Positions 327 through 59,536 of a stretch of DNA of 64,000 bases are shown here, piece after piece; position 1 is the first letter of the stretch; each line of letters begins with the position of its first letter. The DNA is from Lachnospiraceae bacterium. Lineage in GTDB: Bacteria; Bacillota; Clostridia; Lachnospirales; Lachnospiraceae. The stretch spans positions 1-64,000 of the forward strand of contig JAAWOG010000014.1 of NCBI GenBank assembly GCA_022799355.1, given 5' to 3'. The position numbers were made by a program, and so were the translations under genes. A model generated the notes under the pieces. The model was not told the origin of the DNA and made no database searches. It was given only the letters and a program-made list of their open reading frames with translations.

Positions 327-399
327 AGCTGGAAAAGGGACTTGAACCCTCGACCTACTGATTACGAATCAGTTGCGCTACCGACTGCGCTATTCCAGC
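327..399 (-). tRNA. tRNA-Thr(CGT)
   Basis: The minus strand folds as a full cloverleaf. The acceptor stem is GCTGGAA (393-399) with TTCCAGC (328-334). The anticodon stem ACTGA/TCAGT carries the loop TTCGTAA, giving anticodon CGT, which reads the threonine codon ACG. The T arm contains GGTTCAAGTCC. The 3' CCA is not encoded and must be added after transcription. A separate promoter lies just upstream. Confidence 0.95.
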
Positions 400-10674: not shown

Positions 10675-10858
10675 TGTCTTATCCTCCATCATTCTGGTCT
10701 CTTTTTGTTTCTATTTTTTGATACCTTTTCGGCGTCCCCGCTTTTTACGGCATGGCAGGACTCTTACCACTCAGGTATCTGTTTTATGATAAACCGGAGA
10801 TATCCCGGATATCATTCAAATTTTATTTGCCGCATTATTTTTACGAAGGCTGAACTTC

Positions 10859-11091
10859 CAATATCATTTGGTTAAGCCATTTAACCAGCCGGGAGGAACA
10901 TAAAATGCGGAGGGAGCCCGTTAAAAAGCGTCGGCACTTGGCAAATGAGGAATTTTCACGGAAAATTGCTCATGCGCTTAGTGTCCGCTACGCTGTTTCA
11001 CAGGCTCTTGAAAAACAGAGCCGGCGCAAGCGTGGCGACGGAGCATTTTATGTTCCTCCCGGCGTCCTGCAATGTCAACTAAATGACATTG
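10859..11091 (+). repeat. Nested-palindrome element, copy A (complete)
   Basis: A 233-bp element fills most of the gap between fabH and acpP. Its ends are inverted copies (CAATATCATTT against AAATGACATTG). Inside is a perfect 21-bp inverted repeat (10888-10908 and 11043-11063). At the centre is a third, imperfect hairpin around 10922-10997. The 10-bp sequence GCTGAACTTC occurs directly on both sides (10849-10858 and 11091-11100), as a target-site duplication would. An extra small hairpin (GGCTCT/AGAGCC near 11003-11022) is missing from the other copies. It encodes no plausible protein. Confidence 0.85.
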
Positions 11092-11132
11092 CTGAACTTC
11101 TGCCTGTTTTATATCTCCGGCGCCATGACACT

Positions 11133-12101
11133 CTACATATCCCACTCAAGAATATTACCGCTCCATGTCAGTCCCGCTCCGAAACCGGCAAGCAGGATCT
11201 TATCCCCTTTTTTCAGTCTGCCCTCTCTGTTTAACTCATCCAGAAGGATAGGCACGCTTGCCGAGGAAGTATTGCCGTAATGCTGCAGGTTCATCGGGAA
11301 TTTCCACGCCGGCTCTCCGATATGCCTCGCCACGGTCTCCAGAATCCGCAGGTTTGCCTGATGCACCACAAACCAGGCGATCTCTTCCTGCTTCACCCCG
11401 TTTTTCCGCAGCACCTCTCTGATCAGTTCCGGCACCCTGCGCACCGCAAACTTGAAGATCTCCTGCCCGTTCATATCAATATAGAATTCTCTGGAAAACT
11501 TCTCTCCTTCCGCATTCGCCCCCAGCCTGTTCTTACAGGTCAGCGTCCAGCCCTTCGCCCCGTCGGAATGGGTAACGGACAAAAAATGCTTTCCCTGAGA
11601 ATTTTTCAGCACTGCCGCCCCTGCGCCGTCCCCAAACAAAATGCAGGTGTTCCGGTCCGTGTAGTCGGTCAGATGAGAAAGGCTTTCCGCAGCCACGATC
11701 AGCGCCGTTTTGTACTGTCCTGCCGCAAAAAAGGCATCCACCATATTGTAAGCGATCACAAAGCCGCTGCAGGCAGCGTTGATATCAAAAGCCGCCGCAT
11801 TCTTTGCCCCGATCTCCCTTTGCACCTCACAGGCGCTGCTGGGAAGTATCACATCGGAAGAAAGGGTTGCCATGATGATCAGCTCAATATCCTCCGGAGA
11901 GATTCCTGCATTTTCTATCGCACGTCCCGCCGCCTCGGCAGCCATATATGTAGTAGTCTCCGTCTTTGCAATATGACGCTGTCTGATTCCCGTTCTCTCC
12001 CGTATCCACGTATCATTGGTCTCCACAAGCTCCGCTATCTTATCATTATCCATGACATACCCGGGCGCATAGGAACCTGTTCCACAAATCACTGCTGCCA
12101 T
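11133..12101 (-). CDS. fabH: 3-oxoacyl-ACP synthase III
   Basis: A 322-residue condensing enzyme that starts fatty-acid synthesis by joining an acyl-CoA primer to malonyl-ACP. The triad is Cys111 (NAACSGF), His247 (VVHQANLRI) and Asn277 (YGNTSS). GAGGAG precedes the ATG. As the first gene of the operon it follows a strong promoter with a FabT-like operator. Primer choice (straight or branched) cannot be read from the sequence alone. Confidence 0.97.
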   Translation of the reverse strand: MAAVICGTGSYAPGYVMDNDKIAELVETNDTWIRERTGIRQRHIAKTETTTYMAAEAAGRAIENAGISPEDIELIIMATLSSDVILPSSACEVQREIGAKNAAAFDINAACSGFVIAYNMVDAFFAAGQYKTALIVAAESLSHLTDYTDRNTCILFGDGAGAAVLKNSQGKHFLSVTHSDGAKGWTLTCKNRLGANAEGEKFSREFYIDMNGQEIFKFAVRRVPELIREVLRKNGVKQEEIAWFVVHQANLRILETVARHIGEPAWKFPMNLQHYGNTSSASVPILLDELNREGRLKKGDKILLAGFGAGLTWSGNILEWDM

Positions 12102-17971: not shown

Positions 17972-18183
17972 CAATGTCATTTTGTTAACATTACCGGACG
18001 CGGGGAGAGAGATAAAATACTCCGTCGCCACGCTTCCGCTCGGCAAAAAGCGTAACGGACACTAAGCGCATGAGAAATTTTCCATGAAAATTCCTCATTT
18101 GCTAAGTGCCGACGCTTTTTAACGGGCTCCTTGAGCATTTTATCTCTCTCCCTGCTGAATAAATGGCTTAACTAAATACATTG
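17972..18183 (-). repeat. Nested-palindrome element, copy B
   Basis: A 212-bp element in the opposite orientation to copy A. The outer ends are CAATGTCATTTTG and CTAAATACATTG. Its long inner arms (about 17999-18021 and 18133-18155) pair almost perfectly although their variable part (GAGAGA/TCTCTC) differs from copy A (GGAACA/TGTTCC). The central hairpin shares the AAAAAGCGTCGGCACTT start with copies A and C. No clear target duplication is seen. It fills the 427-base gap between two divergently read genes. Confidence 0.82.
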
Positions 18184-21186: not shown

Positions 21187-21250
21187 AAAAAACCTCCCGC
21201 GTCAACCACCAATGTTATTTAGTTAACATTAGCGTCAACCACGGGAGGCT
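21187..21250 (-). terminator. Terminator of the purine permease gene
   Basis: Read on the minus strand, a CCTCCCG/CGGGAGG stem at the base of a longer hairpin is followed by TTTTTT, just after the permease stop. The loop holds a nested AATGTTA/TAACATT palindrome (about 21211-21230) that resembles the outer hairpin of the dispersed palindromic elements. An 11-bp direct repeat (GCGTCAACCAC) is present in the same structure. Confidence 0.8.
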
Positions 21251-22660: not shown

Positions 22661-22745
22661 ATTCTTTTCTTCTCCTCCTTTGATAGGTGTGAGGAAAAGC
22701 TTATCGAAATCGTATCGGGAAAAAGATACATCTTTTGTACTTCAT

Positions 22746-22822
22746 CTTTTCTTCCGGTAGTCAGATATTTACGGTATCTGGTAGAAACTCCGGAACCATA
22801 TTATCCGGATTATATCGAAAAG
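22746..22822 (-). ncRNA. Purine riboswitch, guanine class
   Basis: The minus strand contains the full purine aptamer core: TATAATCC, ATATGG, GGAGTTTCTACC, then ACCGTAAAT and CTGACTACC. P1 is formed by CTTTTC and GAAAAG. The base that selects the ligand is C (in GACTAC), as in guanine/hypoxanthine riboswitches, rather than the U of adenine ones. The P1 3' strand can instead pair with ATCTTTTTCC just downstream, which may be the switching alternative. It lies about 85 bases before the NCS2 permease gene. Confidence 0.94.
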
Positions 22823-22924
22823 CCCTTTCCTGAGTTTATAAAAATTTTATAATTGCTACGTTCCAAGTATAACATGCGCCGGATATCCCCACAATCGTCA
22901 TATGTTACAAAGTTATCATAAAAT

Positions 22925-29506: not shown

Positions 29507-29584
29507 CGTTTCTCTCCCCCTTCTCTTCTTTATCTTATCTTTATCAATGTCCTTTCGTTAACCCGGACATTGCTTCCCGCATCG

Positions 29585-41800: not shown

Positions 41801-42563
41801 TCCGCTCCTGCCCTTTATTTCTGTAGTCTCTCGGACTCATTCCATAAAATTTCCTGAAAGCCCTCGTAAAATTTTTGGCATTATGATATCCCACCCGCTC
41901 GCTGACCTCATACACCTTACTGTATGTCTCCGATAACAGCCTTGCCGCCTCCCTGAGCCTTACCCTCTGCACATACTCCGAAAAACTTATGCCCATCTCA
42001 CCGCTGAACAGCACGCTTAAATAGGACGGACTTAAACTCACATGTGCCGCCGCGTCCGCAAGCTTGATCTCCACGTAGTTCTTCTTTACATATTCCTTTA
42101 CTTCCCTGATAATCTTTCCCTTATAGTCAAATCCTTCCCTATCTCCTCTGTTTCCCGCATCCGGTTTTTCCTCTCTCTGATCCGAATCCAGCACCTTTTT
42201 CAATCTTTCAAACAGACCGGCGATCTTTCTGTAATCCGTAGGTTTCAGGATATAATCATAAACACCGAGCTGCAGGCCTTTTCTCGCATATTCAAATTCA
42301 TTGTAGGCGCTGAGAAGTATAATCTTTCCCGTAAATCCCCGCTTCTTCAACTCCTCGATCAGCTTCAGGCCGTCCATAACAGGCATTTTAATATCTGTCA
42401 TCAGCACGTCCACCGGCTCCTTATCCTCCGTGATCATCTTCAGAGCCTGCTCGCCGTTCCTCGCCTGCCCTGCCACCTGAAATCCCAGTTCCGCCCACGG
42501 GAAAAAATTGGCAAGCCCGTTGCGTATCCCTACTTCATCATCCACAATCAGCAAACGATACAT
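41787..42563 (-). CDS. YesN-type response regulator (AraC output)
   Basis: A 258-residue regulator: receiver domain (1-120) with the phospho-acceptor Asp57 in MTDIKMP and the LLSAYNEFEYARKGL stretch, a short linker, and a C-terminal AraC-type double helix-turn-helix (about 155-250, SPSYLSVLFSGEMG and VGYHNAKNFTRAFRKFYG). It pairs with the adjacent YesM-type kinase. A direct repeat of TAAAAGGTATC spaced by 20 bases upstream of the solute-binding-protein gene is a likely binding site. Confidence 0.9.
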   Translation of the reverse strand: MYRLLIVDDEVGIRNGLANFFPWAELGFQVAGQARNGEQALKMITEDKEPVDVLMTDIKMPVMDGLKLIEELKKRGFTGKIILLSAYNEFEYARKGLQLGVYDYILKPTDYRKIAGLFERLKKVLDSDQREEKPDAGNRGDREGFDYKGKIIREVKEYVKKNYVEIKLADAAAHVSLSPSYLSVLFSGEMGISFSEYVQRVRLREAARLLSETYSKVYEVSERVGYHNAKNFTRAFRKFYGMSPRDYRNKGQERNEKK

Positions 42564-42665
42564 TTCATTTCCCTCCCGGCGACCGGCACTCTCTACTCAA
42601 TGACACTGCACATCCTTATTTTTTCATTTTATCATGTATTCACCATCCTCACAACCGGACTGCTT

Positions 42666-49389: not shown

Positions 49390-49452
49390 CTGAATTCCTC
49401 CTGTAAATCAAATCTGTTTTATTTTTATCAAGATTCTGAATGAAACTGACCA

Positions 49453-49607
49453 GCCGGGATGGAAATAAAATGCTCAAGGAGCCCGTTAAAAAGCGTCGGC
49501 ACTTAGCGAATGCGGAATTTTGGTACAAAATTTCGTATGAGCTTAGTACCGTTACGCTTTTTACCGAGCGCAAGCGTGGCGACGGAGCATTTTATTTCCA
49601 TCCCGGC
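49453..49607 (+). repeat. Nested-palindrome element, copy C
   Basis: A 155-bp core between ilvB and ilvD. Perfect 23-bp inverted arms (49453-49475 and 49585-49607) enclose the same central hairpin as copies A and B. The arm sequence GGGATGGAAATAAAATGC differs from copy A (GGGAGGAACATAAAATGC), yet its partner arm has changed to match. The central stem carries TTTTG/CAAAA where A and B carry TTTTC/GAAAA. The right outer end is cut off by the ilvD stop, seven bases further on. Confidence 0.85.
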
Positions 49608-49613
49608 GTCCGC

Positions 49614-53981: not shown

Positions 53982-54026
53982 CACATTGCCGGCCGCCGGG
54001 AGGAACATAAAATGCTCCGCCGCCAC
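53982..54026 (-). repeat. Nested-palindrome element, copy D (half element)
   Basis: One outer arm of the dispersed element (CACATTGCCGG, then GCCGGGAGGAACATAAAATG and CTCCGCCGCCAC) lies between add and deoB. The arm matches copy A exactly in its variable part. The central hairpin and the second arm are missing, and unrelated sequence follows, so this is a truncated copy. Confidence 0.75.
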
Positions 54027-54078
54027 CCTTCTCGATGCATGGAAATCACAGAAAAATGTCATTTTGCACCGGTAAGCC

Positions 54079-59415: not shown

Positions 59416-59445
59416 TTTTATTCACACTTTCTATCACGCAGCTTC

Positions 59446-59533
59446 CATGTCATTTTGTTCCGATTGCCGGACGCCGGGAAGGACATAAAATGCTCCCTCC
59501 CGGCCGGATAAATGGTTCAACAAAATTACATTG
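59446..59533 (-). repeat. Nested-palindrome element, copy E (internal deletion)
   Basis: An 88-bp form with both outer ends (CATGTCATTTTG and AAATTACATTG) and one inner arm (GCCGGGAAGGACATAAAATG), but without the central hairpin. The remaining arm joins directly to CTCCCGGCC of the other side. It looks like an internally deleted copy, between the GNAT gene and leuB. Confidence 0.75.
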
Positions 59534-59536
59534 ATT

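Follow-up and report, generated by a model that had tools for sequence, protein, structure and literature searches.

A nested hairpin repeat in the 64-kb window

The window analysed here, a 64,000-nt stretch of DNA from the Lachnospiraceae genome G000, contains several copies and remnants of one hairpin repeat (Table 1). The original prediction had described five copies built on one plan of short inverted ends, a long inner stem and a central hairpin: in its main parts this holds for copies A, B and C, which have in common a stem P1 of about 22–23 bp (in copy A a perfect 21-bp stem), an inner hairpin P2 and a mini-hairpin P3 with a GNRA loop, but not for the elements at 53983–54030, which is one-ended, and 59441–59534, which is without the inner hairpin; furthermore, copies A and B have inverted ends and copy C has none. 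The P1 variants GGAACA, GAGAGA and GGAAA are each accompanied by a matching opposite arm, as had been noticed. Elsewhere in the window lie a tRNA (327–399, minus strand) and a purine riboswitch aptamer (22738–22837, minus strand; Rfam RF00167, 75 bits).

Table 1. Positions of the hairpin repeat, its parts and its remnants in the window (TIR, terminal inverted repeat).
Feature	Position	Strand	Remarks
Copy A, full element	10859..11091	+	tip in orientation A: CGTCGGCACTT...GAGCGNRAGCG
Copy A, left TIR	10859..10875	+	CAATATCATTTGGTTAA
Copy A, right TIR	11075..11091	-	CAATGTCATTTAGTTGA on minus strand
Copy A, target duplication, left	10850..10858	.	9 bp, CTGAACTTC
Copy A, target duplication, right	11092..11100	.	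9 bp, CTGAACTTC
Copy A, P1 5' arm	10888..10908	+	
Copy A, P1 3' arm	11043..11063	+	100% complementary to 5' arm
Copy A, conserved tip	10909..11042	+	P2 inner hairpin, extra hairpin, P3 mini-hairpin
Copy A, P3 mini-hairpin	11024..11031	+	GC-GCAA-GC, GNRA loop
Copy B, full element	17972..18183	-	opposite to A; P1 arms 18000-18022, 18133-18155
Copy C, stem and tip without TIRs	49449..49611	+	P1 arms 49453-49475, 49585-49607
One-ended fragment	53983..54030	-	single P1 arm and flank
Short element, deletion form	59441..59534	-	both ends, shortened stem, without P2
Degenerate one-ended fragment	42561..42609	+	
Solitary terminal repeat remnant	21207..21230	-	
Solitary terminal-repeat match	29545..29561	+	one mismatch

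Copy number and distribution

With 88 BLAST matches to copy A (among the matches listed) and 28 full-structure matches (among the candidates scored) in the host genome, the family is real, far beyond chance; congener G004 holds at least 148 full-structure matches (150 candidates scored). A covariance model built from 57 non-redundant copies matched 106 of 299 Lachnospiraceae genomes, corresponding to 105 of the 298 genera sampled, and in a set of 391 class-level genomes its matches were found in Lachnospiraceae only, with none in the other Clostridia families sampled. The copies named here derive from MAGs and isolates of gut origin, rodent guts among them. Across these genera the element recurs with quite different arms, and the wide divergence of the arms shows that the copies are not recent identical duplicates. 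In most other genera, the tip occurs without the IS4-type TIRs described below and within other flanks. Outside the window's genus the P1 sequence is unrelated and the inverted repeat often reaches 50–80 bp (L281: 82 bp, 3 mismatches; L263: 73 bp, 3; L313: 63 bp, 2; L290: 51 bp, 0). By eye, P1 in these otherwise unrelated sequences often combines a G+C-rich base with an A+T-rich stretch (ATAAAAT or TATATAT) roughly 10 bp from the tip.

Where two copies lie close together in other genera, the arrangement is nearly always head-to-head. At L276, L277, L278, L279, L282, L286, L300 and L318 the two members differ in their arms and stand in the same order, with the A strands diverging, some only 30–45 bp apart. 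At L162 and L190 a further element, with arms of a distant type (GGAACAGTATATATTTACC), lies some tens of bp to the right as a direct tandem copy. A glmS ribozyme (RF00234; L197, 2593–2754, minus strand) lies near an element in Lachnospiraceae UBA11962. The element in the window had no Rfam match at the gathering threshold, nor did seven loci yield a credible one up to E = 5, and the queries used did not find the element on plasmids, phages or viral contigs. Our literature searches returned no description of it, which, given their limited coverage, is weak evidence.

Fold and covariation

Folding of the 57 copies with RNAalifold yielded P1 (23 bp), P2 and P3. The tip, about 100 nt long, combines P2, an imperfect hairpin, with P3, a mini-hairpin of two pairs closed by the GNRA loop, in a three-way junction. 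By eye, P2 keeps a fixed U-U mismatch together with unpaired bases and bulges on its 3' side, and some subfamilies show Watson-Crick pairs in place of tandem G-A positions. The tip is kept across genera, whereas P1 differs almost copy by copy with its arms still matching.

The covariation claimed in the original prediction, which we assessed by shuffles and partner slides and not by R-scape, is overwhelming and much stronger than had been thought: double changes occur at 32 of 48 pairs and 98.3% of cells are paired, compared to 82% in shuffles (0 of 500) and 35–50% when the partners were slid. Within P1, about 15 cells with one-sided changes stand against several hundred with double changes.

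On copy A's strand, 118 of 122 copies have a P3 loop that conforms to GNRA. The same rule is followed at 73 of 77 scored P3 sites from other genera, where A and G are almost equally frequent at position 3 and five copies have exchanged the closing pair C-G for U-A. Of 126 copies, 100 fold more stably as copy A's strand. The GNRA rule supports a folded single strand in copy A's orientation, be it RNA or single-stranded DNA.

Mismatches and neighbouring genes

A stem that is selected as RNA should accumulate single transitions as G-U pairs on its functional strand. It had been argued that RNA is favoured because several imperfect pairs in B and C are G-U when read on copy A's strand; however, this is not uniform even within the window, where copy B has one A-C and one G-U in orientation A, and it fails in the family at large. 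In P1 of 127 copies, we counted 22 distinct G-U against 23 distinct A-C events on copy A's strand; counted as cells the same copies give 46 against 25, a lean towards A that is due to one recurring site, and the P1 cells of 78 copies from other genera give 110 G-U against 154 A-C. For P2, distinct contexts number 13 against 15 in other genera and 12 against 10 in the genus set. Neither P1 nor P2 thus shows a consistent strand preference of mismatches or a wobble excess on a transcribed strand, and this symmetry leaves the strand argument without support. The positive control for this test consisted of tRNA stems, of which only six could be scored, too small a number.

Orientation relative to tandem genes was co-directional in 52 cases against 20 in the window's genus set and in 15 against 16 in other genera. 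A 3'-UTR element was rejected because the bias seen in the genus is gone in other genera. An intrinsic terminator formed from the AAAAAGCG...CGCTTTTT blocks was likewise discarded, since by eye the T-tracts are missing in several genera. No recurrent helper gene was found in the neighbourhood of the copies.

These results bear on the possibility that the element is a functional structured RNA, either noncoding or part of an mRNA, made as a putative transcript from copy A's strand, with the fold under selection and spread by MITEs. Such an RNA would account for the purine at position 3 of the GNRA loops throughout, the exchanged closing pair, the greater stability of copy A's strand, the conserved bulges and U-U mismatch, the replacement of tandem G-A by Watson-Crick pairs in some subfamilies and the unchanged tips at L102/L104 and L331/L337 (see below), and its paired columns covary as those of a new RNA family would. 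In spite of this we regard it as a tentative explanation and somewhat doubtful: neither P1 nor P2 shows a G-U excess relative to A-C, whichever strand is read, the near-perfect, copy-specific stems of 50–80 bp in some genera exceed the needs of an RNA, the family has no fixed relation to neighbouring genes and the element is not in Rfam.

Changes in place at orthologous loci

Orthology was accepted only with related arms or a full alignment, L330/L336 being kept for its aligned flanks. Position alone was rejected as a basis, as several coincident intergenic sites are independent insertions; L059/L176 is an example, L059 being intact at both ends and flanked by a target duplication of its own. 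Vertical inheritance is seen for other copies than copy A, and congener G482 carries the element at the corresponding site for six of the seven G214 loci tested. The tip is clearly more conserved than the flanks in L102/L104 (0/94 against 56/996 positions changed, with two double changes and one single change in the arms), L162/L190 (1/109 against 89/975), L133/L189 (2/94 against 52/643) and L331/L337 (tip unchanged), whilst this is not clear in L330/L336, L334/L339 and L335/L342, for which the count includes P1 bases.

In L330/L336, the arms differ almost throughout and each pair is nevertheless self-complementary, with flanks that can be aligned (9 differences in 407 positions on the right); L334/L339 is a further orthologous pair counted for a joint change of the arms in place. 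Gene conversion between copies could partly mimic such a joint change. In addition, the centre of L015 (G000:C2:5930-6113) is inverted relative to its IS4-type ends, which constitutes a spacer inversion, and at L150 an outer end has been copied onto the other side. Template switching is known to homogenise the arms of inverted repeats and to invert their spacers (PMC8604942). The inversion in L015, the copied end of L150 and the in-place change of arms bear the signature of template switching between the two arms of an inverted repeat. Hairpin-templated DNA repair, which had been named as the alternative to an RNA hairpin, hence gains support from the strand symmetry, the joint in-place arm change and the spacer inversion.

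Terminal repeats and mobility

Many copies in the window's genus sit inside IS4-type MITEs with the TIR CAATGTCATTTNGTTAA and target duplications of 9–10 bp, among them CAGAAATAGT (L068), GGGCTGAAC (L087) and GGAGCGGTAT (L059) besides that of copy A. Congener G005 harbours an autonomous IS4-family element (L237, 1680 bp) whose ends, CAATGTCATTTAGATAA, match those of the MITEs and whose transposase of 437 aa is recognised by NCBIfam transpos_IS4_1 (2.4e-49) and Pfam DDE_Tnp_1 (2e-24); it is surrounded by a 10-bp duplication, GGCATTTTCT, provided that the G005 contigs C22 and C16 flank one insertion. The copies thus resemble IS4-family MITEs in sharing TIRs with an autonomous IS4 element (in the window's genus only), in target duplications of similar size, in being non-coding and in their length, here up to about 230 bp. 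They differ from such MITEs in their conserved folded tip, in mostly lacking these ends in other genera and in an interior in which no remnant of the IS was seen, the tip sequence being absent from the IS stretches read in L237–L239. The host assembly G000 has no detectable member of the L237 transposase family. In the window's genus, the unit would have been spread in trans by IS4-type transposases that recognise the flanking terminal repeats.

Given these features, the repeats might be plain decay products of non-autonomous IS4-family elements, with a palindromic interior that has no function beyond transposition. Copy A is absent from the orthologous intergenic regions read in congeners G001 and G004, and several contigs of G000 break off within near-identical members of a single subfamily (CAATGTCATTAAGTTAGC...), suggesting that it spread recently; both are in keeping with this explanation, as are the TIRs, the target duplications and the autonomous relative. 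We nevertheless consider it improbable: about 105 genera share the conserved tip, most of them without these TIRs, six of the seven G214 loci retain the element in place, and P1 outlives the ends. Mismatches in P1 do not depend significantly on how far the terminal repeats have decayed (Spearman -0.05, p 0.55), averaging 0.4 of 20 with intact ends and 0.9 with ends near background, and P1 is still about 95% paired in copies whose terminal repeats have faded to background level.

A separate motif, GTAACAGTTCAGCC/GGCTGAACTGTTAC, flanks many elements, forming inverted ends in L290 and L313 and the target or an outer layer in G004 (L069, L092); repeats of about 8–9 bp lie outside L290, and a flank of copy A, GGCTGAACTTC, resembles the motif. 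The motif may represent another type of TIR or a hot spot of insertion.

Comparison with other repeat families

ERIC, BOX, Correia and similar MITE-like repeats are dispersed nested palindromes of 100–200 bp. To our knowledge, copy-specific arms around a conserved tip are not described for ERIC, BOX or Correia. In its form the element may resemble parvovirus-like ITRs and attC.

REP/BIME and the CGTC-/GTAG-tagged repeats (PMC3733652), in a survey that does not mention Firmicutes, are also dispersed, largely intergenic palindromes with variable complementary stems, but they measure 20–40 bp, whereas here a conserved tip of about 100 nt stands on a stem, giving about 150 nt for stem and tip together, the foot varies between GGAC and GTCC in place of GTAG/CGTC, and no RAYT association is apparent. 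Mobilisation by a Y1 (RAYT-type) transposase, although compatible with dispersed palindromes, variable matched stems and sites often near gene ends, is very unlikely on account of the Y1 domain (PF01797) counts, which bear no relation to copy number (none in G000, one in the genome with 148 copies and 13 matches in a low-copy genome), and there is no common neighbouring gene. Least credible of all is that the repeat encodes a short protein on copy A's strand, in the manner of the Rickettsia palindromic elements: although a 109-aa ORF (10905–11234, plus strand) runs through copy A and the frame is open from CTCAAGGAG to the end in 34 of 57 copies, stops in the other 23 and a spacing of two conserved blocks that falls into all three phases (27/19/8) rule against it, and no conserved reading frame was found in the 57 copies examined. 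Gene-calling programs may read these repeats as small proteins that do not exist.

Interpretation

The explanation we prefer, to which we give about an even chance, is that hairpin-templated template switching maintains the match of the arms at the level of DNA, around a tip that is selected as a folded single strand. The palindrome would fold in single-stranded DNA and one arm would be copied from the other, through template switching or hairpin-templated repair; such copying would fix mutations in both arms at once and would sometimes invert the centre or lengthen the arms. Selection would preserve the tip as a folded strand in copy A's orientation, which a putative host or transposon factor would recognise. 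We infer the DNA-level matching from the strand symmetry, the joint arm change, the inverted spacer and the outward-copied end; against it stands that only one clear spacer inversion occurs among 128 copies. As a blind DNA process should tidy the fixed bulges and the U-U mismatch of P2, their persistence means that selection must act on P2. The GNRA rule, with a third base that is always a purine, fits RNA better than the known GNNA loops of DNA. It is the strongest argument for RNA; those for DNA, to which we lean on balance, are the strand symmetry, the very long copy-specific arms and their exchange in place. Both may be partly true, with an RNA or single-stranded DNA tip on DNA-homogenised arms.

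DNA-level matching of the arms has its nearest counterpart in quasi-palindrome homogenisation (PMC8604942), which likewise produces matched arms without strand preference and spacer inversion but has been described as scattered mutation events and not as the evolution of a repeat family. Going further, the repeat could conceivably represent a new class of mobile or host-adopted element, its arms written from each other by folding of single-stranded DNA and its T-shaped GNRA tip recognised family-wide as a folded strand by a putative nuclease, primase, recombinase or transposase, a proposal we make with some reserve.

This uncatalogued folded repeat is present in a third of the genera sampled from Lachnospiraceae, a family that ranks among the dominant bacteria of the gut, and reaches about 150 copies in at least one genome. 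Since its arms drift and yet stay matched without the wobble excess of an RNA helix, the repeat family offers a natural test case for telling covariation of an RNA apart from homogenisation of DNA arms. Covariation usually counts strongly in favour of RNA; as these repeats show, it should be accompanied by a check of strand symmetry.
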